A DNA stretch of 32,703 nt, taken from positions 1-32,703 of the forward strand of contig JAAOYC010000031.1 in NCBI GenBank assembly GCA_018221125.1, written 5' to 3'. This DNA comes from Candidatus Woesearchaeota archaeon. GTDB taxonomy: Archaea; Nanobdellota; Nanobdellia; Woesearchaeales; WJKL01. The notes beneath the pieces are model-generated. The model worked only from the letters and a program-made list of their open reading frames with translations. It did not search any database and was not told the DNA's origin. This document shows positions 10,010-27,004 of the stretch, in pieces. Position numbers and translations under genes: made by a program. Position 1 is the first letter of the stretch; each line of letters starts with the position of its first letter.

Positions 10010-10858
10010 ATGAAAAAACCAAAAAATATCCAGGAAAATATAATCTTAGATTCATTAAAAGAATCAGTAGATGTAATAAAGAAGAAAAGAGGCTATTTTG
10101 GAATACTTTTCATAACTCAACTGGCTTTCATAATTGCATTGTTCTTTATATTAGGCGCATTTGTAGCTTACTCAACCCAGATGATGGAGCAAGCTCAGAC
10201 TTTCTTTGAAGACTTAGGGGATGTTCCAGCTGATATGGATCCAATTGGAACAGCCAGCTTATTGGAGAATGCAGATGAAATCTCTGTAGTCTACAACAGC
10301 ATGATGGATTTCAGGAACAGAATGGTATTATTAGGTTTCATAGCATTTGGAATATACTTATTATTAGGAGGATTGAATTGGGATCTGGCTAATCTTATGG
10401 TTAATGAAAAATCTTCTTTTATCCTGTATGAAGTGATGTTTTTCATCTCTACTGCAGTCTTCACAATAACAGCATTCCTTTTCACAGGCTTTTTCATAAG
10501 CCTCTTAAACTATATTGGAACAGGACCATTGGCAAGACTGATATTCATGATAGTATTGACAATGATATTCTACTTTGCATTCATCTCCTTTGGTTTGATA
10601 AACAAATATGATACAAAGCAGAAGACGCAGTTCCTAAAGCATACAATCAGGCTTGGCTACAAGAAATTCGGGACATTATTATTCAGCTTTTTCTTCATGC
10701 TGCTGATAATAAGCATATTTGCAGGAGTTATCTATTATTCATTGACAGACCCAATCTGGATTTTCCCAATAGCAGGCATCTTCTTGTTTATCCTTGCACT
10801 GGCATGGGGAAAGATATATTTCCTGATTACAGTTAAAAAAGTAAATGAAAAAATTTAA
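10010..10858 (+). CDS. Multi-pass membrane protein, likely related to the 1320-2075 product
   Basis: 282 residues from the ATG at 10010, six bases after the preceding stop. An in-frame ATG at 9974 would overlap the upstream gene and add a poorly supported 12 residues. The protein has a basic N-terminus, a first span at about 36-60, a roughly 45-residue loop with an acidic amphipathic helix, then about five more spans, and a basic tail preceded by W-G-K-I-Y-F. The order of elements (basic head, span, outside loop, remaining spans, W-x-x-x-Y-F end) parallels the protein at 1320-2075. I infer distant paralogy, untested by alignment software. Its stop codon overlaps that of the convergent purine-operon gene. 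Function unknown; it probably works with the exported proteins encoded upstream. Confidence 0.8.
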   Translation: MKKPKNIQENIILDSLKESVDVIKKKRGYFGILFITQLAFIIALFFILGAFVAYSTQMMEQAQTFFEDLGDVPADMDPIGTASLLENADEISVVYNSMMDFRNRMVLLGFIAFGIYLLLGGLNWDLANLMVNEKSSFILYEVMFFISTAVFTITAFLFTGFFISLLNYIGTGPLARLIFMIVLTMIFYFAFISFGLINKYDTKQKTQFLKHTIRLGYKKFGTLLFSFFFMLLIISIFAGVIYYSLTDPIWIFPIAGIFLFILALAWGKIYFLITVKKVNEKI

Positions 10859-11784
10859 GAAACAGTTTCTGGAATCTCTATTCCATGTTCTTCGCATTTC
10901 TTAATGATATATTCCGGAACATCCATAGTTACACCAGGATTCATCTCATACTTCCATTCTGTATTATGCATGCCTAGTTTTATAGCATTCTTCAGGCATC
11001 CTTCAACAGCTCCTTCAGTCTTTTTTTTGTCTTCTTTGCTCAATCTCTCCATATCACAGATTATCTGGATTTTCATTTCATAAATATCCTTATCATAAGC
11101 TTCTCTAAGATCTTTTGGCACATCAGCCCCTATTAAATCCAATGCATCAACATAAGAAAGGTCCAAAGATCCTTTTGTTTTGGTAAAGTATTTCTCAACT
11201 TCATCTCCCACAAATAAATTCACTGATTTTCCATCAGCATCAGGAAACCTATAACCTCTGCGCATAGGGTTTATCTTTCCCTCTATTTCTAGACCAAAAT
11301 ACAGGAATTCCATGCAGCTGATTTCAATATCTCCTTCTGCAAGCTCCCAATTAGTTTTGCGATGGTCATGCTCAAATCTCTGGGAATATTCCCCAGTTTG
11401 GAATTTGATTGCATTTTCCACTCCTAGTTCAAAATCAGAATTCAGTACTCCCAACTGCCATGTTATATCAACATATTTGTTTCTTCCGTGATTATGTGTA
11501 TATTCTTGTTTTGTCTCAACCAGAACTTTGCTTCCTGCTGACAGATCCTTGACTCTTTGATACAGGTCATTGACTGTCTTTTCCATCTCTTCATATTGTT
11601 TTTCATATCCTTTTGGAACTAATCCAAAATTAACAATCATAAAATCTTTAAACTCGTCTCCAGTTGATTCTCCATTTCTTATTTTTTTCCGGATTTCATT
11701 TTCTTTTTCATATCTTTCAGATTTAGCAGTTTCAATCTTTTTTTCTAACCCTTCAATATCTTTCATATCATCTTCTAATTTCAT
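10855..11784 (-). CDS. Unrecognised 309-residue protein at the end of the purine operon
   Basis: A soluble protein encoded 6 bases after purM on the same strand, so probably the last gene of the purine operon. The N-terminal 95 residues are charged and predicted helical or coiled (LEKKIETAKSERYEKENEIR). The middle (about 95-190) looks strand-rich, with Trp and His (YTHNHGRNKYVDITWQLG, then FEHDHRKTNWELAEGD). The C-terminal third is helical and ends in EYIIKKCEEHGIEIPETVS. I recognise no family or catalytic motif. An alternative start is the Met at residue 7. Its placement suggests co-expression with purine synthesis, but nothing in the protein itself shows a role in the pathway. Its stop overlaps the convergent membrane-protein stop in the shared tetranucleotide TTAA. 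Confidence 0.7.
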   Translation of the reverse strand: MKLEDDMKDIEGLEKKIETAKSERYEKENEIRKKIRNGESTGDEFKDFMIVNFGLVPKGYEKQYEEMEKTVNDLYQRVKDLSAGSKVLVETKQEYTHNHGRNKYVDITWQLGVLNSDFELGVENAIKFQTGEYSQRFEHDHRKTNWELAEGDIEISCMEFLYFGLEIEGKINPMRRGYRFPDADGKSVNLFVGDEVEKYFTKTKGSLDLSYVDALDLIGADVPKDLREAYDKDIYEMKIQIICDMERLSKEDKKKTEGAVEGCLKNAIKLGMHNTEWKYEMNPGVTMDVPEYIIKKCEEHGIEIPETVS

Positions 11785-11790
11785 TTTGCA

Positions 11791-12966
11791 TCAACTCGTA
11801 TATCCTATAAAGTCTTCTTTTCCTTTTTGACCTAATGGATTGTGTATCGTTGTTCTTAAATCTTCTTCATCACTTGCTTCTACTTTCCCGACAATCTTTG
11901 CTGTGTTCTTTCCTTGCTCACTCTCTCCTTGTTCATTGATCAGCTGAACAACTCTTTCTGCAATGTCTTGTGTAGGAACTATGTAGGCAAATCCCATACC
12001 CATATTCTGTTTTTTATAGGCTGTGTGGGCATCCCATCCAGATTCTTCCATAAGAAGCTTATGGATAGGCAGTGGTTCTAATGCATCAGTAATCTCAAAA
12101 GAGACTCCTTCTCCAACCCTGTTAAAATTATGAAGCCCGTTTCCTGTGATATTTACTCCATAGATATCCTTGCTATCAAATTCTTTTCCAACCAAAGCAG
12201 CTTCTACAAGATATAATGCTGTAGGAACCTGCATTGCTTCCAAAATAGTCTTTCCTTCCAGAATTTCTGGCTTGTCATCAAGCTTGAACCTTCCTTTGTA
12301 CTGGCTTTTCCATTCTTCCCTGTATTCAAAATCTGATGTGAATAATGCATGCCTTGCTCCAGTATAACCATTGCTGTGCAATCCGCTTGAAGAGACTCCT
12401 ACAATAGAATTTCCTGGCTTTGGATCTAGATTTGGAACTTTCTTTTTGTCAATATATCCAGTCATCACAATCCCAAAATCAACTCCTTTGTTAGGAACAC
12501 CCAATGAAATCATCTCATCAAGAGAAGCAGTCTCCATCTTTCCTATGTTCAGGTCCCATTGCACATCAGGTATCTTTATCCTTTCCAATGCATCAACAAA
12601 ACCATCCATGATTTCTCCCATATGCTTCTCTTCAACTTCAGTCTGGCAAGCCATATAGATGTTGATTGAATCAGGGATTCCATGGATCAATGTAGCCAAG
12701 TCATTTGCACTCATTGCAACACCATCTGTAGGCCCTTGTCTATAATTATTAGACCAAGCACTTAAGAAAAGCTTTGTCCCATTCCCGTCAACCAAGAACA
12801 CAGAGTAATAATTTGTATTTAGCGGATTTTCCCTTAATTCAGCAAAAAAGCCTTTTGCTTTATCCACTCTTCTGTTGAACAGCCAAGGCGCTCTTTCAAG
12901 AGCCTTTTTACCGCTTGCAATTGCAACTTCTTCACTTGCTTCATAATCAGCTGTATCTTTTGGCAT
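11791..12966 (-). CDS. purM: Phosphoribosylformylglycinamidine cyclo-ligase (AIR synthetase)
   Basis: 391 residues, of the PurM/AIRS family: ATP-dependent closure of FGAM to aminoimidazole ribotide, purine step 5. The family landmarks are present in diverged form: DGNGTK near residue 60 (usual DGVGTK), TDGVAMSANDL near 85 (the VAMxxNDL segment), VGVSSSGLHSNGY near 190 (glycine-rich loop starting the second domain), NITGNGLHNFNRV near 275 and NMGMGFAYIV near 320 (usual FNMGxGM). It is slightly longer than typical PurM (about 345). The start lies 7 bases after a GAGGGGG site located in the end of purO, and purO's TAA stop lies between that site and the ATG, implying coupled translation. Confidence 0.88.
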   Translation of the reverse strand: MPKDTADYEASEEVAIASGKKALERAPWLFNRRVDKAKGFFAELRENPLNTNYYSVFLVDGNGTKLFLSAWSNNYRQGPTDGVAMSANDLATLIHGIPDSINIYMACQTEVEEKHMGEIMDGFVDALERIKIPDVQWDLNIGKMETASLDEMISLGVPNKGVDFGIVMTGYIDKKKVPNLDPKPGNSIVGVSSSGLHSNGYTGARHALFTSDFEYREEWKSQYKGRFKLDDKPEILEGKTILEAMQVPTALYLVEAALVGKEFDSKDIYGVNITGNGLHNFNRVGEGVSFEITDALEPLPIHKLLMEESGWDAHTAYKKQNMGMGFAYIVPTQDIAERVVQLINEQGESEQGKNTAKIVGKVEASDEEDLRTTIHNPLGQKGKEDFIGYTS

Positions 12967-12968
12967 TT

Positions 12969-13793
12969 TTATTCCCCCTCATGCAGATTTTTAATAGCAA
13001 CTTGTTCTTTTTTGTATTCCCAATCATCTTTTGAAAGCATGCACGCTGAACTTACTGCAAATTTCCCCATTGCTTCGTAAATACCATTTGCAATATCCTG
13101 CTGGGTTTCAGGTATTACTGTTTCGACTTCTAATCTGATATCTCTTGGTTCTCCAGTAAAAGCAGGCAATGGATTTTGATTTACACCTTCATATGTTGCA
13201 ATCATTTTTGCTTGTCCTTCTACTAAAGGAAATTTATAGAAACAATGTAAAGGCTCTCCATTGGTATCCCTTTTAATTACACCCAACATAGCATAATCTC
13301 CTTGCACAACTCCGCATATCCTTGGTGTAAAATTTGGATCATCTGGTTCATAACAAGCAATGTCGATTGTTCTTCCGTCTTTTGTTTCCATATAGTGAGG
13401 CTCGCAAAAAGACATAGGCAGCAAATCTTCAATAGGAAGTTCTCTTTCCATAAATCTTCGGTACATATCAGCTGCATCTCCAATTAAATTTGTTTGCACC
13501 CCATTGCTTACTATAATAGTTCTACCAATTTTCACTATAGCATCATACACTAATAAAGAAGGGTCTCCTTTTGCAAGTTGTTCTGGATCTGTTACATCAA
13601 TAGAAATTCTTTTTTTATCTTTAGTAGCTTTAAGTTTTCTTGCCTGACTAGATTCACTTCTTCCAGAAAGACCATAAGCCACAACATTTGCTCCATCATA
13701 GCTATGCCCTGCATGAGAGCCTCTCTTTGTCCTTCCAATTATAATAACCCTTCCTGGGTATTCCATTTCAGCTAATTTTTCTAATCCTTCCAT
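12969..13793 (-). CDS. purO: IMP cyclohydrolase, archaeal PurO type
   Basis: Closes FAICAR to IMP, the last step of de novo purine synthesis. The sequence matches the PurO fold rather than bacterial PurH: PGRVIIIGRTKRG at the N-terminus, VAYGLSGRSESSQARKLKA (the YxxSxRSxxxR-type segment), VYDAIVKIGRTIIVSNGVQT, and YEPDDPNFTPRI (the Y-DxxNTPRI segment). At about 274 residues it is longer than methanogen PurO (about 200). I chose the ATG at 13793 because a GGGGGG site lies exactly 7 bases upstream, the spacing used by purM, purC and purD; ATG 13799 and TTG 13808 are in frame but too close to or upstream of that site. The presence of PurO is a strong archaeal marker in an operon whose purSL looks bacterial-like. 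Confidence 0.85.
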   Translation of the reverse strand: MEGLEKLAEMEYPGRVIIIGRTKRGSHAGHSYDGANVVAYGLSGRSESSQARKLKATKDKKRISIDVTDPEQLAKGDPSLLVYDAIVKIGRTIIVSNGVQTNLIGDAADMYRRFMERELPIEDLLPMSFCEPHYMETKDGRTIDIACYEPDDPNFTPRICGVVQGDYAMLGVIKRDTNGEPLHCFYKFPLVEGQAKMIATYEGVNQNPLPAFTGEPRDIRLEVETVIPETQQDIANGIYEAMGKFAVSSACMLSKDDWEYKKEQVAIKNLHEGE

Positions 13794-13812
13794 TTTCATT
13801 CCCCCCAAATTA

Positions 13813-14877
13813 TTATTTTAAAAATCCTCTGTCAGCCAATGCTGCTAGGATTACTTCTTTCCTTGGCTCTGTTGTTATTTCAGTTGGTGTTCCTGTTATT
13901 GCTTCTCTGATGTTGCAGTATAATACAACTCCATCTCTCAATACATCATCATCCATGTGGTGCGCTGCTAATTCAGCTTTTTTCTCTGGAGTATGCAGTT
14001 CAAGTCTTTCAACATAATCCCTGAAATGCTGCTTATCTCCCTGCACAATTGTAAATTCATTCTTCTCTTCATTCAATGCATATTTGTCCTTATCCCATAT
14101 CCTAGAAGAATCTGGTGTTACACATTCATCAATCAGGATAATCTTTCCATCTGGAAGATAACCAAATTCCCATTTTGTGTCTGCCAGCAGTTTTCCTTTT
14201 GATTCTAGATCTGAGTGTATCGTATTATATAATCTGAATGAAGCATCAACAACATAAATCAAATCTCCTGGAGTCTTTAATCCAAATGCTTGATAGTTTT
14301 TCCTGATTATGTCAACTGTAAGCTTTGGATCATCTACTTCTGGATCCATTCCTTCAAATTCAGGAATGTCAAAATCTTTTACCTGCCCTTTTGCAGTTGG
14401 TGTGAAGATGACTTCATCAAGCATCTCATTCTTCCTGTATCCAGGTCTTAGATTTACACCGCAGAATTCTGCTCCTTGTTCAGGGCCATTTGCTTTTGAA
14501 TAACCTCTCCATCCTGAGCCTGTAATATATTTTCTAAAGACCATTTCTACTAAAATCTGGTCTGCTTTATCCACAAGCCACGTGTTTGGAGCTAGGTTTT
14601 CCCTGAAATGATTTGGGATTATGTTTTCTGTTTTTCCAAAATATTTGGAAGAGATTCCATCTAAGTTATCTCCTTTTGCATATACTTGCCTCTTATGGAC
14701 AACATCGTGTGTTGATAAATCATCACTTGATACTATTATCAATTGTTCTCCAAGATCATAAACATTCCTTACTTTACCTGTTTTTGGAGGAGCTACAACC
14801 TTAACTTCAGGCCATATCTCTTTCTTCAGTGTGTTTTCCAGAACTTCTGGTGTTATTTGACTTTTATCTATTGTCAT
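13813..14877 (-). CDS. purC: SAICAR synthetase (phosphoribosylaminoimidazole-succinocarboxamide synthase)
   Basis: 354 residues. Joins CAIR and aspartate using ATP. Recognisable motifs in order: GKVRNVYDLG near residue 33 (nucleotide-binding strand), SSDDLSTHDVV near 50 (usual SDRxSAFD), ILVEMVFRKYITGSGWRGY near 107 (usual VEVVVRxYxxGS), LADTKWEFGY near 230 (usual LADTKFEFG), and LIDECVTPDSSRIWD near 250 (usual DExLTPDSSRFW). The last is the most conserved part of the family. The C-terminal extension of about 90 residues makes it longer than bacterial PurC (about 240) and closer to the long forms. The start has a GGAGGAG site 7 bases upstream, inside the last codons of purN. Confidence 0.9.
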   Translation of the reverse strand: MTIDKSQITPEVLENTLKKEIWPEVKVVAPPKTGKVRNVYDLGEQLIIVSSDDLSTHDVVHKRQVYAKGDNLDGISSKYFGKTENIIPNHFRENLAPNTWLVDKADQILVEMVFRKYITGSGWRGYSKANGPEQGAEFCGVNLRPGYRKNEMLDEVIFTPTAKGQVKDFDIPEFEGMDPEVDDPKLTVDIIRKNYQAFGLKTPGDLIYVVDASFRLYNTIHSDLESKGKLLADTKWEFGYLPDGKIILIDECVTPDSSRIWDKDKYALNEEKNEFTIVQGDKQHFRDYVERLELHTPEKKAELAAHHMDDDVLRDGVVLYCNIREAITGTPTEITTEPRKEVILAALADRGFLK

Positions 14878-14879
14878 TT

Positions 14880-15731
14880 TTATTCTCCTCCAATCTGAAA
14901 ACCATTATATCCTAAAGGTTTTCCATCAACATAAACAGCTCTCCATTCATCAAAATGAGCTTTCTCAGTTCCTAAACCAATCCTTCCTTCAGAAATCATC
15001 TTCAAAGCAGTTGTTAAAGCAGGCCAGTCACTAGCCTCTTTTTGTCTGTCTTGATGACCTATTTCAGTATCAGTTCCATCAACATACTGTCTTAATTGTG
15101 CTGTTCTTTCTTCAAGAGGAAGTCTCGAGAATTCTCCATTAACCCTAACCCAATGGCCTTGTGTCAAAATTTCTCCATGGTCTTCACCATCATCTACTAT
15201 AATTACTGAAGACTTTGTTGATAGTTCACCAGCTTTTATTGCATCATAAACAGCATCATCTCCAATATAAATTCTTGAATCTCCCTCACCGAATGGTGGC
15301 AGATGAGAAGGATGAATATTAATTATCTTGTCAGGATAAGATTCTAACAATGGCTCTTCAACTAATCTCATGTATCCTCCAAGAACAATCAAATCAATGC
15401 CAAAGCCCACTTCCTCTTCAAACATATGAAGTAAATGAACAATATCTTGATTGAATCTAATACTTTTTCTTTTGTATTTAGCCATTGCTTTAGAATTTCC
15501 TTGCGCTTTCTTCCAACTGCCGCATGCGTGGTAGCCATTAATCATCAATTGCTCAATCTCACTCAATTCCTTTAAATCAAATAGCTTGGCATTTGGTTTG
15601 TCAGAAAAAATCAAGACAGGTTCTATAACCTTGGCACATTCTCTTAGATTAGTGCCGCTTCCAGAGCCAAATCCAACCCAGTGAAAATCTTCTGGTTTTC
15701 CGTCATAAATTCTTTTTATTTCTTCTGTCAT
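14880..15731 (-). CDS. purN: Phosphoribosylglycinamide formyltransferase-like protein
   Basis: 283 residues of the formyltransferase fold, placed for formylation of GAR with 10-formyl-tetrahydrofolate. It has the N-terminal FGSGSGTNLRE loop near residue 21 (usual GSGxGSNxQ), LGGYMRLV near 122 (usual LAGFMRxL), IINIHPSHLPPF near 137 carrying the Asn and His catalytic pair, and IVDDGEDHGEIL near 180 carrying the catalytic-loop Asp. PurN is normally about 200 residues. The extra length is a helical insertion around residues 65-105 and a C-terminal tail of about 75 residues. The adjacent purD, whose product makes GAR, supports the assignment. The start is preceded by GGTTGG, encoded in the last codons of purD. 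Confidence 0.85.
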   Translation of the reverse strand: MTEEIKRIYDGKPEDFHWVGFGSGSGTNLRECAKVIEPVLIFSDKPNAKLFDLKELSEIEQLMINGYHACGSWKKAQGNSKAMAKYKRKSIRFNQDIVHLLHMFEEEVGFGIDLIVLGGYMRLVEEPLLESYPDKIINIHPSHLPPFGEGDSRIYIGDDAVYDAIKAGELSTKSSVIIVDDGEDHGEILTQGHWVRVNGEFSRLPLEERTAQLRQYVDGTDTEIGHQDRQKEASDWPALTTALKMISEGRIGLGTEKAHFDEWRAVYVDGKPLGYNGFQIGGE

Positions 15732-15733
15732 TT

Positions 15734-17074
15734 TTATTCCAACCCTTTATCACCAATATCATTTCTGTGGACAAATACTTCTACATCATTCAGTTCTCTT
15801 GTAGCTTTCATAATCACATCCACAGCTGCATAAGCTTTATCCTGCGCCCCCTCAAGCCCTTTAGCTGAATATGCAGTTACTCCAAGAACTCTTCCACCAG
15901 CAGTTACTATTTTCTTATCTTCCAAACCAGTTCCTGCATGGAAAACCTTAACATCGCGCCTTTTGGAAACTTCTTTCAATCCTCCAATTGGAAATCCTTT
16001 TTCATAGCTTGCAGGATAGCCATTTGATGCCATTACAATACAGCAGGAAGCTCCTGGCTTGAATTCAACATTTACTTCATCAAGTTTTCCATCCAGAGCA
16101 GCTGATATAGGCTTATACAATCCGTCTTTAAACATCATTACAGCTGGCTGTGCTTCTGGGTCTCCAAATCTGCAGTTATACTCCAAAATCTTAGGACCCT
16201 CTTCTGTCATAATAACAGCAGCATACAAGAATCCTTTGAACTCTTCTCCGCCTTTTTGCATTTCCCATACTAATGGTGCCATCATCTCATTTGCAACCTT
16301 TCTAACCATTGCAGGATCTGCAACCTTAGCAGGTCCATATGCTCCCATTCCTCCTGTATTCGGACCTTCGTCTCCATCAAGCAAAGGCTTGTGGTCTTGT
16401 ATAGACATTTCTAAAGGAACAACACTCCCTCCATCAGAAATTCCAAAAACAGAAAACTCCTGTCCAAATAATCTTTCAGAAATTAAAACCTCAGGACCAT
16501 AAGCTGCAGCATGTTCATGTAATTTAGATAAAGCTTCTTCTCCACTATCACAAACATAAACACCTTTTCCTCCTGTTAATCCTCTTGCTTTAATTACAAT
16601 TCCTTTAGGAGTAGCCATTTTCTTTATTGCTGCTTCAGCAGCATCTGTTGTAGTGCATAACATAGATTCTGCTTGAGGAATACCTGCCCTATACATTATA
16701 TCACTAGAATAAGATTTATCAGCTTCTATATCAGCAGCACCACTAGTTGGACCAAATATTCTGTCATATCCTCTTTCATTGAAAAAATCAACAATGCCAT
16801 CAACCAAAGGCTGTTCAGGACCAACAACAACCATATCAATACTTTCTTTTTCAACAAGGTCAGCAAGTTTTTCAAAATTCTCTTTTTTTGTTCCATCAAA
16901 AGCAACAAGTTCTCCAGAATCATCCTTTACTTTTACATTTTTTCCTTTTTTCTCAGCATCAGTTCCAGGATTTCCTTTTGCATAAAGAACTTCATCAACT
17001 TCTGAATCTTGAGCAATACTATAACCTAAAGCATGTTCTCTTCCTCCACTACCAATAATTAAGACTTTTTTCAT
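15734..17074 (-). CDS. purD: Phosphoribosylamine-glycine ligase (GAR synthetase)
   Basis: 446 residues, an ATP-grasp enzyme joining phosphoribosylamine and glycine. The start MKKVLIIGSGGREHALGYSI is the canonical PurD N-terminus, followed by YAKGNPGT, VVGPEQPLVDGIVDFF (usual GPExPLxxGxxD), KARGLTGGKGVYVC (ATP-grasp loop), LISERLFGQEFSVFGISDG, GPNTGGMGAYGPA (strongly conserved) and ILEYNCRFGDPEAQP (metal-binding strand). Length is close to the family norm of 420-430. It lies 12 bases after purQ with a GGAGGA site 7 bases before the ATG, and 2 bases before purN. An out-of-frame ATG lies inside that 7-base spacer. Confidence 0.95.
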   Translation of the reverse strand: MKKVLIIGSGGREHALGYSIAQDSEVDEVLYAKGNPGTDAEKKGKNVKVKDDSGELVAFDGTKKENFEKLADLVEKESIDMVVVGPEQPLVDGIVDFFNERGYDRIFGPTSGAADIEADKSYSSDIMYRAGIPQAESMLCTTTDAAEAAIKKMATPKGIVIKARGLTGGKGVYVCDSGEEALSKLHEHAAAYGPEVLISERLFGQEFSVFGISDGGSVVPLEMSIQDHKPLLDGDEGPNTGGMGAYGPAKVADPAMVRKVANEMMAPLVWEMQKGGEEFKGFLYAAVIMTEEGPKILEYNCRFGDPEAQPAVMMFKDGLYKPISAALDGKLDEVNVEFKPGASCCIVMASNGYPASYEKGFPIGGLKEVSKRRDVKVFHAGTGLEDKKIVTAGGRVLGVTAYSAKGLEGAQDKAYAAVDVIMKATRELNDVEVFVHRNDIGDKGLE

Positions 17075-17086
17075 TTTTCATTCCTC

Positions 17087-17884
17087 CTATTTCATAGCAT
17101 CTACTGCTGCTTTAAACATAAGACAGGTAGGCTCATAGACTCCACTTGTTGTTTCTTTTTCCCTCTTGACTGCAGCCCTGTCAGGTCTTTGGAAATCATG
17201 ATGCAGTCTTTCAAAATGAGGGAACAACACCAAATTATTATCCCATCCAAATCCTGCAATATCTGCAGTTGAACCATTTGGATTATATCTGTCTCCTTTT
17301 GATGATTTATAGAAATCGCACATATGCCCTTTTTCATATGTTAATGCAACCAGGTTTCTCTCTTTTACAACTTCTAATAAATCTTTTCTTATAGTTATCC
17401 TTCCTTCACCATGGGATATTGGAGCAAATATAGGATCTTCATACATTTTCAAATAACTAAGCCAAACATTATCATTTTTAGGATTGACTTTTGTATCCCA
17501 GAAACTTGTTTCGTGTTTTCCAGAATCATTCTGCATTGTTCCTACAGGTATTGGGAACAAATCTAATTTAGCCAAGACCTGCAGCCAGTTGCATACGCAA
17601 TATATTGGGAAACTCTCATCGTGTAGTTTTTCATATAATTTACCACGAAGCCCAGAAGCTTCAACTCTGTTTTTAATTGATTGTCCTGCTCCTAATTGGT
17701 CTCCCATTGTAAAACCGCCAGGCAATCCAGCTCCTTGATAATCATCTATTAAAGAAGGCTCTGCAATCAGATCATTCAGATGCCTGTACTCAACATCAGC
17801 TCCACCAAGCTTATCAAAACAATAACCTAATTCTTCATGTGAATTAATTCCAAGTCCAGTTGGTATTATTACTTTGGGTCTCAT
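17087..17884 (-). CDS. purQ: FGAM synthase glutaminase subunit, altered nucleophile elbow
   Basis: 265 residues of the class I glutamine amidotransferase fold, the ammonia-producing partner of PurSL. Visible landmarks: GLPGGFTMGDQLGAG near residue 54 (usual FPGGFSYGDxLRAG), PISHGEGR near 156, NPNGSTADIAGF near 201 and FPHFER near 221 (usual MPHPER) with His223 and Glu225. The nucleophile region reads YCVCNWLQ with Cys98. The usual pattern is Gly-x-Cys-Asn-Gly-x-Gln, so both elbow glycines are replaced, by Cys96 and Trp100. Activity may be changed, or the substitutions tolerated. The start overlaps the purL stop (ATGA), which supports stoichiometric expression of the two subunits. Confidence 0.88.
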   Translation of the reverse strand: MRPKVIIPTGLGINSHEELGYCFDKLGGADVEYRHLNDLIAEPSLIDDYQGAGLPGGFTMGDQLGAGQSIKNRVEASGLRGKLYEKLHDESFPIYCVCNWLQVLAKLDLFPIPVGTMQNDSGKHETSFWDTKVNPKNDNVWLSYLKMYEDPIFAPISHGEGRITIRKDLLEVVKERNLVALTYEKGHMCDFYKSSKGDRYNPNGSTADIAGFGWDNNLVLFPHFERLHHDFQRPDRAAVKREKETTSGVYEPTCLMFKAAVDAMK

Positions 17885-20800
17885 GCTGCTTTCTTAACCT
17901 CCTTGCCATGATAAACTCCTAACAAATCATCCACTGATTCAGATATAAGCTCATTAGTACCTTGAGAAATTCTTAAGCTGTCTCCCCCTACAACTCCAAC
18001 AAGACTGTATTTTTCATCAAATATTTTTTCAAACTCTGTTTTATTTCCAGCATTGATAGTAACAAGGAACCTTCCTTCTGTCTCGCTATACATCTGTTCT
18101 CTCCATGTTAAATTATCTTCCTGATGAACCCGATTCAAGTTCAAGTCAATTCCACGTTCTCCAGCCATTGCACTGCTCCTGGCAGCCATTGCTAATCCTC
18201 CTGCCTCAATATATATAGCTGATTGCAGTAATTTATTAGATTTATTTATTTTCTTGAAAGTATCAAACGCATCAGAAACATCTTCATCACTGACCTTTCC
18301 AATATGCAGGTCATCTTCCACTCTTTCTCCATACATATTATGATATTCAGAACCCCCTAGATTATCTTTAGTGCTTGCTCCAACAACATAAACTAAATTT
18401 CCTTCTTCTTTTACATCTATTGTAACTAAATCATCAACATTATCAATCTTAGCCATTGTAGTCATAAGAATTGTCGGGAATACTCCTCGTTTTACAACAT
18501 TTCCATCTTTATCATACATTGTTGCCTGGTTATACATGGAATCTTTTCCAGAAATAACAGGAATCTCACATCCAGTTATAACTTCTGCCATTCCTTTGTT
18601 AGCCTCAATAAGCATCTGTTGATATTCAGGCTGGTCAGAGCTCTGCCATAGTGCCTGGTCTGTTGCAACCATATAATCCATTCTTCCGCCCATTGCAACA
18701 TTATGGCCAATCCCCCTTAAGAATGCATTTCTTCCCATTTTTTCAGCATCAATATACACCTGTCTTTCTGAATGTCCATATGATTGTATAAGTCCTTCTA
18801 TATCTCCTAATTCTACTGAAGTGCATGCTGCCTTTGTTGAGACCCTTCCCTTGCCCTGTATGCAATGCTGCACACTCAGTCCTTTTACAGTGCTGTCCAT
18901 CCTGTCTGTAAAGCCGGCAACACTTCCTAAATTAGGTCTTCTATGCATTGCATCAAAGTCAGATTTGATCAGTCCTTCTAATGTCTCTCCAGCTTCACGC
19001 AATGTTTCTAAAACAGCATCATTAAATTTATACTTTAATTCATCTTTTTCTTGCTCTGATAATCTGTATTCAGCAGGCTTTAAGTTTCTATGAGGGAATC
19101 CATGATTTATAAAATCCATATCCATATCAACAACTTTTTCTCCATTTGCATAGACAATTGCCCTGCCAGAATCAGTAAAGCAGCCAATATCTGAAAACTC
19201 AACTTCATGCTCTTTCATTATAGCTTCAATCGCATCTTTATGTTTCATATCAACAGCAATTGCCATTCTTTCTTGCGACTCATTCAGGAAAAGTTCTGTA
19301 GCTGTCATTCCTTCATATTTTACAAGCAGCTTGCTCAAATCAATATCTAATCCGCCTGTTTCTTCAGCCATCTCAAGTGATGCGCAAGATACTCCTCCTG
19401 CCCCTAGATCAGTTATAAATTTGATATATCCTTTATCACGAAGCTCAAGCAAAGCTTCAAACATCTTTCTTTGAGTATAAGGATCCCCTATCTGAACAGC
19501 TGTTGCAGGAGAATTAGCACTATATTCTTCAGATGAGAAAGTAGAACCATGAATACCATCTCTTCCAGCTCTTCCGCCAATAATATACAATCTATCTCCA
19601 ACATCAATATGTTTTTCATGCGTAGGCTTTCCATTAACTTCTATTGGTGCTCTTCCCCAGCTTCCAACACCCACTTGGCATTTACCGTTATAATTTTCAT
19701 GATGCTGACAGATTGCTAAATTAAGAGCAATTCCCATCTGGTTTGCTCCTTCCTCAACACCAGAAACAACACCACCAAATATCTGCTTTGGATTAAGAAG
19801 TAATTCTTCAAGGCTGAATCCTCTATCCAATGCAGTTTTATCAGTAACATTCTTCCATTCCTCATCATCAGGAGTTATAATCTTCTTGAAATATTTTCTT
19901 TTATCATCTTTATGCCCTAAGAAATAAAACAAGAAATTTCCAATGACTTCAAATCCTAAACCAGTTCCAGCAGGGTCTCTGTTGACTCCAACAATTCCTG
20001 TTATTGATCCTCCATAAGGGTCTAAGGCTGAAGGTGAGTTGTGAGTTTCATTTTTTAAGCCAATAAGCCATTTATCATTAAATTTGAACACGCCAGAATT
20101 ATCTTTGTAGATTGAAACTCCAAGATGAGGTTTTTTCTTCAAAACTTCTAATGTTGGAGCCCTGATATATTCTTGGAATATTCCATTTTCTTTTCCAGGA
20201 ATAGATGCATTATACAAGGAATGCCTGCAATGCTCGCTCCACATTTGTGCAAGAAGTTCAAGCCCGACATCAGTTATTACTCCCTTTTTATTACCTTCTC
20301 CCTTTGTATGTAATTCAGATAAAGCATATTTAACTATTGCATCCATATAATCTAAATCATAATTATCCTTAACTAAGGCTAAAGTTCCACCTCTTAGCTT
20401 GTCAATATCTTTTTGGCTCATTTCTGGCTTTACAAGGTCCAGATTCAATGTTCCTAATTTTCCTGTTCTTCTTAATTCCTCGTTGTCCATGCTTCCCAAA
20501 TCAATAGGAAACATATTAGCACGTTCTCCTAAATCAACAGGATGGATCTTTCTTTCAAATCCTCCCTGTTCTTCAAATTCATTCCTTTTCAGAATAGTGA
20601 TACCATGGATCTGAGGATTAGACGCTACTCTTTCTAACTGGTCTTCTAAAGACTTATTGAATTCTCCTGTTATGTAATGGACATTTGAAGTGTAGACATC
20701 AGCATCTTCAACTCCAATCAATCCCAGATCTTTTTTTAATACTCTTGCAGAATTATCAGTTACACCTGGCTTGAAATCAACTTTTATTGCAAAACCCCAA

Positions 20801-21036
20801 TCTTCTCTTTTTACTCTCTGATTGATCAGTGCTTCTTGCGTAACAGGATGATGGACAAGTTTGCTCGTTCTTTCTAATCCTTCTACATCAAAATCCATAT
20901 CAAACGTGAAAAAACTTGTGCTGAATGCTCCTGCTTTCTTGATTCCAACATCTCTCAAAGCCTCTTCAAGAGCAGAAATAGTGTCACTTTCCCCTATTTG
21001 CTTATCAACAACTTCTATAGTATTTATACTGGCCAA
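17881..21036 (-). CDS. purL: FGAM synthase, PurS-PurL fusion
   Basis: 1051 residues. Converts FGAR to FGAM with ammonia from PurQ. The length lies between small PurL (about 730) and large PurL (about 1300, with its own glutaminase). The first roughly 175 residues resemble two PurS-like halves (VKVDFKPGVTDNSARVLKKDL and following strands), so it reads as PurSL with a separate PurQ. The PurL part has QMWSEHCRHSLYN near residue 270, KNETHNSPSALDPYGGS near 328 (usual KxETHNHPxAxxPxxG), DLGAGGVSCASLEMA near 548, and later SGKDSMYNQ and GGLAMAARSSAMAGERG. The only start in frame near the ribosome site is TTG, 8 bases after GGGGG; an ATG between them is out of frame. It is the first gene of the purine operon. 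Confidence 0.92.
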   Translation of the reverse strand: MASINTIEVVDKQIGESDTISALEEALRDVGIKKAGAFSTSFFTFDMDFDVEGLERTSKLVHHPVTQEALINQRVKREDWGFAIKVDFKPGVTDNSARVLKKDLGLIGVEDADVYTSNVHYITGEFNKSLEDQLERVASNPQIHGITILKRNEFEEQGGFERKIHPVDLGERANMFPIDLGSMDNEELRRTGKLGTLNLDLVKPEMSQKDIDKLRGGTLALVKDNYDLDYMDAIVKYALSELHTKGEGNKKGVITDVGLELLAQMWSEHCRHSLYNASIPGKENGIFQEYIRAPTLEVLKKKPHLGVSIYKDNSGVFKFNDKWLIGLKNETHNSPSALDPYGGSITGIVGVNRDPAGTGLGFEVIGNFLFYFLGHKDDKRKYFKKIITPDDEEWKNVTDKTALDRGFSLEELLLNPKQIFGGVVSGVEEGANQMGIALNLAICQHHENYNGKCQVGVGSWGRAPIEVNGKPTHEKHIDVGDRLYIIGGRAGRDGIHGSTFSSEEYSANSPATAVQIGDPYTQRKMFEALLELRDKGYIKFITDLGAGGVSCASLEMAEETGGLDIDLSKLLVKYEGMTATELFLNESQERMAIAVDMKHKDAIEAIMKEHEVEFSDIGCFTDSGRAIVYANGEKVVDMDMDFINHGFPHRNLKPAEYRLSEQEKDELKYKFNDAVLETLREAGETLEGLIKSDFDAMHRRPNLGSVAGFTDRMDSTVKGLSVQHCIQGKGRVSTKAACTSVELGDIEGLIQSYGHSERQVYIDAEKMGRNAFLRGIGHNVAMGGRMDYMVATDQALWQSSDQPEYQQMLIEANKGMAEVITGCEIPVISGKDSMYNQATMYDKDGNVVKRGVFPTILMTTMAKIDNVDDLVTIDVKEEGNLVYVVGASTKDNLGGSEYHNMYGERVEDDLHIGKVSDEDVSDAFDTFKKINKSNKLLQSAIYIEAGGLAMAARSSAMAGERGIDLNLNRVHQEDNLTWREQMYSETEGRFLVTINAGNKTEFEKIFDEKYSLVGVVGGDSLRISQGTNELISESVDDLLGVYHGKEVKKAA

Positions 21037-21044
21037 TCATAATT

Positions 21045-21097
21045 CCCCCTTAGGTCCCTATATATAGAGGTCTGATTAATTCATTTAAATATTTTTT
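21045..21097 (-). promoter_or_regulatory. Promoter and ribosome binding site of the purine operon
   Basis: On the minus strand an A-rich stretch runs into ATATTTAAATG (about 21083-21095), a good archaeal BRE/TATA match. A start of transcription about 25 bases further on, near 21060, would leave a short leader with the GGGGG site at 21045-21049. A second TATA-like run (CTATATATAG) at about 21059-21068 could serve instead. The upstream TATA is part of the 58-bp repeated element. Confidence 0.5.
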
Positions 21098-21138
21098 GTA
21101 GAATTTGTCGTCCTAAATTTGGGACAAATAGAATTATT
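21081..21138 (-). repeat. 58-bp intergenic repeat, copy 1 (upstream of purL)
   Basis: Aligns without gaps to 22167-22224 with 46 of 58 identical positions counted by eye. Both ends are perfectly conserved: TCATTTAAATATTTT on the plus strand at one end and GGACAAATAGAATTATT at the other. The latter contains the stop codon of the upstream minus-strand gene. The centre holds a near-palindrome, GTCCTAAATTTGGGAC, nested in TTTGTC...GACAAA. The TATA-like part serves as the upstream purL promoter candidate, so the palindrome would sit just upstream of it, where an activator or repressor could bind. Confidence 0.7.
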
Positions 21139-22084
21139 TTGAAGATTTATCTTCCACAGCATTAGTATTCCCAGTAACTGGATCAGTTATAGCCCTGCCT
21201 TTATATATCATTTCCAAATATCTTAATTCTCCTGACAGCACATATTTCTCTTCTTTGCCTCTTCTGCTAAAACAATGGATAACTTTTGAGCATTCTTCTT
21301 TCTCTAATAAACCATCTAATCTGTTTGGCGGAATACCTAAAGCTCTTGCTATCTTTTTCCTGGCACTGTTGGATGAAAGAAGCATAATTCCATTGAAATT
21401 ATCAAGTAATCTTATAAAACTCGCTCCAGAAATCATCCCTTCTTCTGTTCTTAGATATAATGCCACATCATTTGCTACATCTTCATCTCCAAAATAAGGA
21501 TGCACTTTCTTAAGAATCTTTTTCACATAAGAAACATCATACTTCTTGTCCTGCTCTAACTCTACAGCCTCTCCTTGAATCTTAAAACTTACTCTCGGTT
21601 CATATTCCCCTGTTTCCCTGCCTTTTGTTATCTGAAATATATTTTTTGTTGTCATTTCATAGGATATATCCTCTACAAGGCTCTCTAATCTTTTAGCTTC
21701 AATGCAAGGAATTTTTGTTTGGTTTATCCAAAGCAGATAAGGTTCTTTACAGCCTTTTAATTCTTTATTAAGCAGGATTTTAACTTCTTCAGCAGATGTT
21801 CCAGCCATTTCTGCAATTCTGCTATATTCTCCTGCAGTTAAGAGGATATGATGCTCTAAACTCTTTACTAAACCAACAATATCTTTTCCAGGAACAAGCA
21901 TTGCCTCTCCTGCAATCTTCTTCCATAACTGCTTTACTTTAGATTTATCCAGCCCTTCATAAGCATGAAGCATCATTTCTTCAAAAACAGGAAATCCATA
22001 ATCCAGCTCAGGATTCACAGGATACTCTCCTTTTTCTCCAGAAATAAATGGAAATGCAATAAATCTTTTTTTAGGCTCAGCCAT
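21134..22084 (-). CDS. Unrecognised 316-residue protein with helix-turn-helix-like segments
   Basis: A soluble protein upstream of the purine operon on the same strand. Two segments look like helix-turn-helix units: IAEMAGTSAEEVKILLNKEL near residue 89 and KKIARALGIPPNRLDGLLEK near 243. Between them lie a Cys-Trp-containing stretch (KGCKEPYLLWINQTKIPCIEA) and a strand-rich region (YEPRVSFKIQGEAVELEQD). The pattern would fit a DNA- or RNA-binding regulator, but I recognise no named family, and both helix-turn-helix readings are by eye. A TATA box, CTTTATAAAG, at 22106-22115 is about 26 bp from the ATG, suggesting a leaderless transcript. Its stop codon lies in one copy of a 58-bp repeat. Regulation of the neighbouring purine operon is possible but speculative. 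Confidence 0.65.
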   Translation of the reverse strand: MAEPKKRFIAFPFISGEKGEYPVNPELDYGFPVFEEMMLHAYEGLDKSKVKQLWKKIAGEAMLVPGKDIVGLVKSLEHHILLTAGEYSRIAEMAGTSAEEVKILLNKELKGCKEPYLLWINQTKIPCIEAKRLESLVEDISYEMTTKNIFQITKGRETGEYEPRVSFKIQGEAVELEQDKKYDVSYVKKILKKVHPYFGDEDVANDVALYLRTEEGMISGASFIRLLDNFNGIMLLSSNSARKKIARALGIPPNRLDGLLEKEECSKVIHCFSRRGKEEKYVLSGELRYLEMIYKGRAITDPVTGNTNAVEDKSSK

Positions 22085-22105
22085 AGAAAAAAGAAGTAAA
22101 ATATT

Positions 22106-22115
22106 CTTTATAAAG
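22106..22115 (-). promoter_or_regulatory. TATA box for the 316-residue gene
   Basis: CTTTATAAAG lies about 26 bp from the ATG at 22084, placing the start of transcription at or next to the start codon (leaderless). No ribosome binding site is seen. Confidence 0.5.
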
Positions 22116-22166
22116 TTTCTATTTTAAGGCGCAATTAAAATAAGAATCTTCATTATACCCAACAAA

Positions 22167-22224
22167 TCATTTAAATATTTTATCCAACTTCTGTTGTCAT
22201 AAAACTAGGACAAATAGAATTATT
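22167..22224 (-). repeat. 58-bp intergenic repeat, copy 2
   Basis: The partner of 21081-21138, same orientation and length with no gaps. It again contains the stop codon of the preceding minus-strand gene (TAA at 22220-22222), a TTGTC...GACAA inverted arm pair around a 10-base centre, and the TATA-like ATATTTAAATGA. Here the TATA-like end lies about 90 bases from the next start, so it may be a second, distal promoter or a decayed copy. Confidence 0.7.
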
Positions 22225-22897
22225 CTTTAGGTTTTTCTGGAGTAAACAAATGGCTGATATCCACTCCCTTTGGTGTAGGAATTGGGCCTTTATTTCCTCC
22301 TTCTTCTAATGCTTGAGAAATACCTTCCTGTAGGGTATAAGGATCTCTATTTTTCCCAACAGTTCCAGTCTTATCTCCAACTGAACAACTTCTATATCCT
22401 GAAGCACCACCATCTAAAGCATGCATTATGTGTTTACCAGGCCATGCTGGTATTCTATACCCTGCATTTATGCCACCATGTGAAAAAAGAACATCTCTAC
22501 ACTCTCCATCAATTCCAGTTAATACAGGTATTGGTTTTCCATCTAACAGATGTCCTGCATTAGGACCGCCCAGATCAATATCATAGAGAAAAACTCTGCT
22601 ATTCTCTACAAAGATTGGAAATGATGCTATGCCCACATCTGATTTTAATTCAGCCTCTATTCTTTGGTAATCTTCAGAACCAGCATAACCTTCTTGCTCT
22701 AGTCTATGCACTTGAAGAGCATTTGCTTCTATTCTCTCATATAATTTTCTTTTTCCCTCAGGCATTCCAGGGAAATAATGAGTTTCAACTTTAGCCGGAT
22801 CAATACCTCTTTCTCTAACCTGTTCTTGTCCTTCTTCATCTATATCTAAAGGAAGTAACCTCAATGTTCTCAATTGTGCTTTTAAATCTTTATCCAT
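22220..22897 (-). CDS. Unrecognised 225-residue soluble protein
   Basis: No family recognised. The first 85 residues are charged and helical (LRTLRLLPLDIDEEGQEQV, then KLYERIEANALQVHRLEQEG). The middle (about 88-175) is glycine-rich with hydrophobic strands and conserved-looking turns: FLYDIDLGGPNAGHLLDG, VLTGIDGECRDVLFSHGG and MHALDGGASGYRSCS. That stretch resembles an enzyme or binding core more than a structural protein. The C-terminus is a Pro/Lys-rich tail. No signal peptide or membrane span. Transcribed divergently from the SPFH gene, with TTTTTATA about 27 bp from the ATG and no ribosome site, so probably leaderless. Its stop lies in the second copy of the 58-bp repeat. Confidence 0.65.
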   Translation of the reverse strand: MDKDLKAQLRTLRLLPLDIDEEGQEQVRERGIDPAKVETHYFPGMPEGKRKLYERIEANALQVHRLEQEGYAGSEDYQRIEAELKSDVGIASFPIFVENSRVFLYDIDLGGPNAGHLLDGKPIPVLTGIDGECRDVLFSHGGINAGYRIPAWPGKHIMHALDGGASGYRSCSVGDKTGTVGKNRDPYTLQEGISQALEEGGNKGPIPTPKGVDISHLFTPEKPKE

Positions 22898-23851: not shown

Positions 23852-24076
23852 ATGGCTCCAACAACCATACAACTTGATAAATCAATAGTAAACATATTGA
23901 AAGAGATACGGGAATATCCTAGACAGACATATAATGAACTGATTCAACATATGGTGCAGGTTTTTAAGAGCGTTAAAAAGAAAAACCAGTATGATGAATT
24001 CCTTCATAAGATTCAACAGGCTAAGATGCAGGAGATCTGGGACAATAAAGAGGATGAGGCATGGGAAAATGCCTGA
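23852..24076 (+). CDS. Antitoxin, ribbon-helix-helix type
   Basis: 74 residues. The N-terminus (TTIQLDKSIVNILKEI) has the strand-then-helix pattern of ribbon-helix-helix DNA-binding proteins, followed by PRQTYNELIQHMVQVF as the second helix. The C-terminal half (QAKMQEIWDNKEDEAWENA) is acidic and probably disordered, as expected for the toxin-neutralising tail. The gene precedes a MazF/PemK-like toxin by about 40 bases and has an inverted repeat over its own promoter. GGTGA lies 6 bases upstream of the ATG. It should neutralise the toxin by direct binding and repress the operon. Confidence 0.8.
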   Translation: MAPTTIQLDKSIVNILKEIREYPRQTYNELIQHMVQVFKSVKKKNQYDEFLHKIQQAKMQEIWDNKEDEAWENA

Positions 24077-24117
24077 TTTTTACCAGATCAAGCTGCGAAG
24101 GAACATGGTGAGTGAGT

Positions 24118-24429
24118 ATGCTTAAAGCAGGCGATGTAATATTAACACAGATTCAATTTACAGATACTTTTGAAATCAAAAAAAGACCTGCTTTAATTTT
24201 ATTTGAAGAACTGGATAACATAGTTGTAGCTGGAATAACAAGCAATAAAAAAATGAGAGGAGTTCCTCTTACTAAAAAAGAAGGTGCAGTCAAAGATAGC
24301 GTTATAAAATTAAATTACATTTTTACTATCTCTAAAATGATGATTGAAAAGACATTATTCTCTTTATCTAATGGAAAGAAAAAGATAGTTTTTGACGAAT
24401 TAGTAAATAGATTAAAGAATCTGCAGTAA
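24118..24429 (+). CDS. MazF/PemK-family toxin (endoribonuclease)
   Basis: 103 residues from the ATG at 24118. A GTG at 24112 is also in frame, but GGTGAG spaced 6 bases favours the ATG. The opening MLKAGDVILTQIQFTDTFE, then KKRPALILF, is the PemK/MazF hallmark (GDIVLxxFPFTD...KxRPALVL). Later AGITSNKKMR and DSVIKLNYIFTISKMMI follow the family order, the latter corresponding to the segment carrying the catalytic Ser/Thr. Family members cut RNA at short sequence motifs. Pairing with a ribbon-helix-helix antitoxin supports the call. Cleavage specificity cannot be read from the sequence. Confidence 0.85.
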   Translation: MLKAGDVILTQIQFTDTFEIKKRPALILFEELDNIVVAGITSNKKMRGVPLTKKEGAVKDSVIKLNYIFTISKMMIEKTLFSLSNGKKKIVFDELVNRLKNLQ

Positions 24430-25696: not shown

Positions 25697-26962
25697 TTAG
25701 TTTGCAGTAGGGTCAACTACTTTTCCCATAAATAAGATGTTTCCTGTTCCTTTTTCCTGTATCAGGAAGATAAATGGATGGTCTGCCCTGAAGATATTGG
25801 TGGGCATGGCAGCTGTCAGTTCCATGACAACAGCTGTTGCAGCTGCTGCTTCTGTTCCTTTTTCATCAACTTTAACATAAGCTTGATGGATTACATTACC
25901 AATGTAGAGATCATTTGAACCATCCATACCTGAGAAATCAGCCTGTCCTGACTTAAATGCAGTTGGCATTCCCATCTGCTCTAATGTTTCTTTCATAAAA
26001 TACTTTGTCTCAAACTTGAATTTAGGAAGATAGATTGAGTCCATCTTTGTCTCCTGCATTTTGCTTTTGTATTCATCAAGTTTTTCAGAGGATAATTCAA
26101 TATCTCCAAGAGTATAATCATAAGTAATTATCTCATGTGTTTCATAATCATATTCTTTTCCTTGTTTTGGCAGTAAAATCAGCATTGAAATTTTCTCGCC
26201 TTTGTAAGGTAACTCTAAAATTTGTAAATTCCCCATATCAGCATAATTTAATCTTGCCTTATCAGGATCCATGTACATCATTGGAACTTTTACTGTATTT
26301 TCTGGAGTTATCTTGAAATCATGTTCACGAGTATCAGATTTATCAAACTCCCATTCCCATGTTCCTTTGAAATAGATTGCATTTGTAAGAACCAACCTTG
26401 TCAATGGACCTAGTACCCCGCTTGGAATTAAATCTTTAATTTTATTGTTGGTCTGTTCTTCTATAAAACTATTAATAGTTTGTCTTGATTTTTCTGTTTC
26501 CTTGATAAAATCTACATTTACTGCTTTTCCACCATAATAATTTTCAACTTTGCTTGTATAATCCTGTAGAAAAGGGTAATCCTGTTGAACCCATAAAGCA
26601 TTTCCTGTCTTTAATTCATAAGCTTTGTTTGCTTCATTAATATTGTTATAAATTGCAGCAAAATTTGGCCTTAATATATTATTATCCGGAAAATGAAAAA
26701 CATCAGCTATCTCTTTTGCAGTATCCCCTTTTGCTCCTTCATAAGTCATTGCCAAAGCAGAAGAGATACTGTAAGGAGAGAAGAATGCATTTCCTTCTTG
26801 ATTTAGTTCTTTGTATAAATCAAAAGCAAATTGGTTGTTTGCATCAACTACCTGTTTAATTCCTTCAGCTGTTGCCTGGGAATCATCTGCAGGTATTGGT
26901 TTTCCACCGCATCCTGATATAATCAAAAGTGATATTAGCAATATACTCATTATTATTTTCAT
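25697..26962 (-). CDS. Serpin, lipoprotein form, probably inhibitory
   Basis: 421 residues from the ATG at 26962, which has GGAG upstream; an ATG at 26977 is also in frame. The N-terminus has a signal peptide with lipobox IISGC, so the serpin should be tethered outside the cell. The body has FAFDLYKELNQEGNAFFSPYSISSAL-type opening strands, LVLTNAIYFKGTWEWEFD (strongly conserved serpin shutter region), VPMMYM, LELPYKGEKISMLILLP, and the C-terminal DHPFIFLIQEKGTGNILFMGKV signature. The reactive loop has the inhibitory hinge GTEAAAATAV. Counting from the hinge Glu as P17, P1-P1' falls near Thr-Ala in MELTAAM, suggesting an elastase- or subtilisin-like target, which is an estimate. It is upstream of, and possibly co-transcribed with, the SIMPL gene. 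Confidence 0.93.
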   Translation of the reverse strand: MKIIMSILLISLLIISGCGGKPIPADDSQATAEGIKQVVDANNQFAFDLYKELNQEGNAFFSPYSISSALAMTYEGAKGDTAKEIADVFHFPDNNILRPNFAAIYNNINEANKAYELKTGNALWVQQDYPFLQDYTSKVENYYGGKAVNVDFIKETEKSRQTINSFIEEQTNNKIKDLIPSGVLGPLTRLVLTNAIYFKGTWEWEFDKSDTREHDFKITPENTVKVPMMYMDPDKARLNYADMGNLQILELPYKGEKISMLILLPKQGKEYDYETHEIITYDYTLGDIELSSEKLDEYKSKMQETKMDSIYLPKFKFETKYFMKETLEQMGMPTAFKSGQADFSGMDGSNDLYIGNVIHQAYVKVDEKGTEAAAATAVVMELTAAMPTNIFRADHPFIFLIQEKGTGNILFMGKVVDPTAN

Positions 26963-27004
26963 TTTATCAATCTCCATATAGTCATGTTAGAAGTTAAGGT
27001 ATAC

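Follow-up and report, generated by a model that had tools for sequence, protein, structure and literature searches.

As is proposed for the element described below, the PurR operators of bacteria coordinate nucleotide-synthesis operons through a shared operator, but they belong to bacterial promoters and to unrelated regulators. In archaea, the binding sites of several activators, including TrmBL1, Tgr, and Ptr2, are located upstream of BRE/TATA (PMC4158304). For TrmBL1 and Tgr, a motif upstream of BRE/TATA marks an activated promoter, while a downstream motif marks a repressed one, and Ptr2 and TFB-RF1 activate through contact with TBP or TFB (PMC4158304). The sites of TrmBL1 in P. furiosus and of Tgr in T. 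kodakarensis, termed TGM, have the form TATCAC-N5-GTGATA and belong to sugar regulons with a known regulator. The TrmB protein VNG1451C of Halobacterium salinarum, with the motif TACT-N7-8-GAGTA, has purine synthesis genes among its targets and can act as an activator from a position upstream of the promoter. The Halobacterium purine genes need a further, TrmB-independent regulator, which is as yet unidentified (PMC3794607).

Here we describe a duplicated element in a 32,703-nt stretch of DNA from a Candidatus Woesearchaeota archaeon (the window). It resembles the TGM sites in that an inverted-repeat operator lies directly upstream of the BRE/TATA of biosynthetic genes, and differs from them in its sequence, TTGTCYCA-N6-GGACGACA, and in being found at nucleotide operons. 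By reading, neither the TGM motif nor the VNG1451C motif is present in the two copies, and a limited literature search returned no description of the present motif or of a shared purine/pyrimidine operator in archaea. Judged from sequence, what appears to be new is the operator and its regulon, not the mechanism. We consider it probable, at roughly 70%, that the element consists of an operator and a core promoter, and that it is the site of a putative transcription factor controlling de novo nucleotide-synthesis operons, most likely as an activator.

All features of the window are on the (-) strand unless noted otherwise. In this direction the order is a 225-aa gene (22220..22897), copy 2 of the element, an orphan 316-aa gene (21134..22084), copy 1, and purSL with the rest of the purine operon. 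The first gene of the operon, purSL (17881..21036), encodes a fused PurS-PurL of 1051 aa, and the remainder (10855..17884) comprises purQ, purD, purN, purC, purO, purM, and a 309-aa gene. This 309-aa gene is the last of the operon (10855-11784) and has only sub-threshold family matches (TFX_C, TIGR00153). The purSL start is apparently a TTG located behind a Shine-Dalgarno-like GGGGG read from the sequence (21045..21049), and an out-of-frame ATG overlaps it (ATGATTG, 21034-21043). Elsewhere in the window, by eye, the gene at 25697-26977 reads as serpin-like (a protease inhibitor), in an archaeon, and small neighbouring genes at 23852-24429 on the (+) strand resemble an antitoxin and a PemK/MazF-type toxin.

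The preliminary description reported a gapless match between 21081-21138 and 22167-22224, and the 46 identities in 58 positions were reproduced on the (-) strand. The similarity runs further, to 75 nt at 76%. The full duplicated segment takes in the 3' end of the 316-aa gene, final codons and stop, in copy 1 (21078..21152), and that of the 225-aa gene in copy 2 (22164..22238). Each upstream gene's TAA stop lies inside the copy, as had been noted (21134-21136 in copy 1 and 22220-22222 in copy 2). By comparison, when 0.8 Mb of composition-matched random sequence (order-2 Markov) is searched with copy 1, the best match is 33–35 of 58, and the best match elsewhere in the own genome is 33 of 58 (163-kb sample including the window). 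The TTGTC...GACAA inverted pair is present in each copy as claimed, but it is not in register, since the spacer is 13 nt long in copy 1 but 10 nt in copy 2, which places the right arms in different alignment columns. The core common to both copies is TTGTC-N10-GAC-N-ACA. The operator of copy 1 (TTGTCCCAAATTTAGGACGACAA, 21105..21127), upstream of purSL, matches the cross-genome consensus exactly. The operator of copy 2 (TTGTCCTAGTTTTATGACAACAG, 22191..22213) has diverged, with three mismatches to the consensus.

Each copy ends in the BRE/TATA-like sequence AAATATTTAAATGA, at 21081..21094 in copy 1 and at 22167..22180 in copy 2. Within that of copy 1, the TATTTAAA box (21084-21091) is 13 nt past the operator and ~48 nt before the purSL TTG start. 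In a sample of own-genome genes inspected by eye, a G-rich Shine-Dalgarno tends to go with a TATA box ~50 nt before the start, and the copy 1 box therefore suits purSL. In copy 2, 83 nt separate the TATA-like sequence from the ATG that starts the 316-aa gene. An alternative TATA-like sequence, CTTTATAAAG (22106..22115), is located ~30 nt before this ATG, a leaderless position; among 88 sampled upstream regions of the own genome, TTTATA peaks ~30 nt before the ATG. Two further features were observed close to the boxes. A near-palindrome around CTATATATAG (21055-21073) lies between the TATA-like box of copy 1 and the purSL start and could represent an additional operator or an additional TATA, and a nine-codon ORF (MKILILIAP, 22128-22157) starts ~20 nt past the TATA-like box of copy 2.

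The genome-wide search suggested in the preliminary description, for sites before other purine genes of the organism, recovered only the two copies. With strict and relaxed patterns, no further core sites were found in the 965-kb own genome at up to three mismatches. AAATATTTAAATGA occurs exactly only at the two copies in this genome, and six more sites have one mismatch. This same-genome search was of low power, since two genes that could have served as tests, purF and purB, were not found in the assembly, which is 78.6% complete. Separately, the intergenic TTTGTCCCTTAGTCTGGAC of the own genome (L043 17393, G000:C11), located immediately upstream of AGGTTTATAAAG, has a partial operator likeness with a score of 12.8.

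Sites outside the own genome were sought by BLAST of copy 1 against 353 genomes of the same order. The strongest core-covering matches were both in G098, a genome of another family. One of them (C1:726165, E 3e-7) is directly upstream of pyrE-pyrF-pyrDK and just past a gene reading as ribosomal protein S27ae. The other (C1:311150, E 1e-5) is upstream of purSL-purQ, with a hypoxanthine phosphoribosyltransferase gene divergent from it. Over the segment from the operator to the TATA box, own copy 1 matches the G098 sites at 36 of 46 positions, compared with 34 of 46 between the two own copies. The cross-genome consensus is TTGTCYCA-N6-GGACGACA (TTGTC-N10-GAC-GACA). The preliminary description had stressed that the TATA-like ends stand at identical spacing. 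This is true of both copies, but by itself it is a mere consequence of the gapless alignment; it became informative because the two G098 sites keep the 13 nt too, so that this spacing is found in four sites of two genomes.

The consensus of the own and G098 sites also led, with three mismatches, to sites before pyrE in G304 and G306, and the refined pattern led to a site before pyrE in G305. In all three genomes the downstream gene scores best as pyrE. The operon order in G306 is pyrE-pyrF-pyrDK-pyrC-pyrB-pyrI-purF, and the G304 operon contains pyrE, a fused pyrBI, and a purF-like gene. In G306 (L095 1622-9594) and G304 (L093 4449-9025), purF is part of the pyrimidine operon or follows it immediately, which links the two pathways genetically. 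When 27 purL loci were scanned directly, the G036 purSL site scored 17.0, the top of 954 windows, and the weak G026 purL site (13.5) is possible only as an outlier. A scan of the genome contigs with PurSL returned no matches. In an alignment of eight sites, 13 of 25 columns are invariant. The G304-G306 and G036 sites depart from the 13-nt spacing to a TATA box.

Based on this conservation across genomes, the preliminary description's proposal of a common operator-promoter tied to purine synthesis appears well supported. Sites stand before purSL in three families (f1, f58, f34), but the proposal was too narrow, since pyrimidine synthesis is linked as well, through pyrE in two families (f58, f85). 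The total match counts do not exceed those of the reversed-pattern controls, with 17 matches against roughly 65 for the own/G098 consensus and eight against eight for the refined pattern, so the case rests on the near-exact sites and their positions. Two of 13 untrained matches are within 200 nt before pur/pyr operons, with a chance of ~2e-5 under a rough model that assumes random placement and a guessed operon number. The consensus was refined using some of the sites it later recovers, and the pyrE sites of G304-G306, which belong to a single family, are only partly independent. Good matches also precede genes with no evident nucleotide role in G341 (one mismatch), G016, G103, and G107. Most of the order's purL loci in the 27-locus scan carry no site, including that of the 60%-identical G038.

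In the mechanism we propose, a putative factor would bind the operator, which ends 13 nt before the TATTTAAA TATA box. The targets would be the own purSL operon, purSL-purQ and pyrE-pyrF-pyrDK in G098, the pyrE operons of G304-G306 with purF in or adjoining them, and purSL in G036. When nucleotides are scarce, the bound factor may recruit TBP or TFB and thereby activate these promoters. Activation is probably favoured over repression because the operator is directly upstream of BRE/TATA, as at the promoters activated by TrmBL1 and Tgr. The same operator could instead serve a repressor that, under an ample supply of purines or pyrimidines, blocks TBP/TFB or extends across the promoter, a mode of control seen at the nucleotide operons of many bacteria. 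Feedback repression is generally the commonest logic of biosynthetic operons. Repressors also form the majority of archaeal DNA-binding regulators (PMC4158304). Repression is nevertheless the less likely mode here, though the chief alternative to activation, as the position of the operator leaves the TATA box and the start site uncovered, unlike in TrmBL1/Tgr repression.

A different explanation is that the copies have no role in regulation and stem from a segmental duplication specific to this lineage, their likeness being due to recent kinship. The left flank AATAATTCTAT is identical at 11 of 11 positions between the own copies only, compared with 3–5 of 11 where the G098 sites are included, and the final codons ahead of the stop are likewise common to the own copies alone. 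These features indicate that a duplication did happen, and copy 2 is likely the product of a local duplication of ~75 bp. This event may have carried the last codons of the upstream gene, the operator, and the TATA box, leaving a weaker version of the element before the 316-aa gene. A local duplication cannot account for the core, however, because the G098 sites conserve the core and its spacing to the TATA box before purSL and pyrE in another family, and kinship alone is thus an improbable explanation.

The element could also be a 3' feature of the upstream genes, such as a terminator or a 3'UTR element, as the own copies and the G098 pyrE site, which follows the S27ae gene, start at or beside a TAA. 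The purSL genes of G098 and G036, however, have a divergently oriented neighbour, and with no transcript ending at the element a terminator or 3' role is excluded at these loci; the RNA also folds no better than its shuffles (z -0.1 to -1.1), which makes such a role highly improbable. A riboswitch or other leader RNA element of the purine operon, as the inverted repeats and the place upstream of a biosynthetic operon might suggest, is barely credible, given that the element lies upstream of the TATA box and hence, provided this box is the one in use, outside the mRNA of purSL, folds weakly, and has no Rfam match.

Returning to the operator of a putative activator, the suggestion that the copies tie unknown genes to purine synthesis is weakly supported. 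Of the two genes, the 316-aa gene alone has a copy before it, while the 225-aa gene is upstream of copy 2, a position that puts it outside the control of the element. In addition, copy 2 has diverged, and the 316-aa gene has the TATA-like CTTTATAAAG of its own; this gene may nonetheless be co-regulated with purSL. By position, the 316-aa protein is a natural candidate for the regulator of the element. It has no relative in the 353 genomes of the order, G098 and the other site-carrying genomes included, or in the genome contigs. Family searches returned no match and no recognisable DNA-binding domain, its AlphaFold model is poor (pLDDT 46), and a fold search with this model was empty. The AlphaFold model of the 225-aa protein is also poor. 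For the 225-aa gene a single partial relative was recovered, in G098 (36% over 86 aa), away from nucleotide genes. The 316-aa and 225-aa proteins were considered as paralogues, but no similarity was found between them.

A 156-aa protein encoded beside the operator in G304 was considered as a regulator and dropped, since its homologues in G305 and G107 are kilobases from the site. Its similarity to the 316-aa protein is weak (E 0.47). It belongs to a conserved protein of 148-163 aa found in G304 (L093 9382-9852), G305 (L094 11148-11639), and G107 (L102 1902-2348), which has a winged-helix look by eye. No Pfam match was obtained for the G304 and G305 members and no NCBIfam match for the G304 member.

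In its boldest form, the proposal would be that one archaeal factor coordinates purine and pyrimidine synthesis through this operator in several families, and that the 316-aa protein is the product of its autoregulated gene, or its partner, in this organism. We regard this combination as rather unlikely. An operator common to purine and pyrimidine operons would nonetheless serve as a bait for finding a nucleotide regulator of the TrmB-independent type, and it lets one ask whether a single factor may balance both pathways in small-genome archaea.
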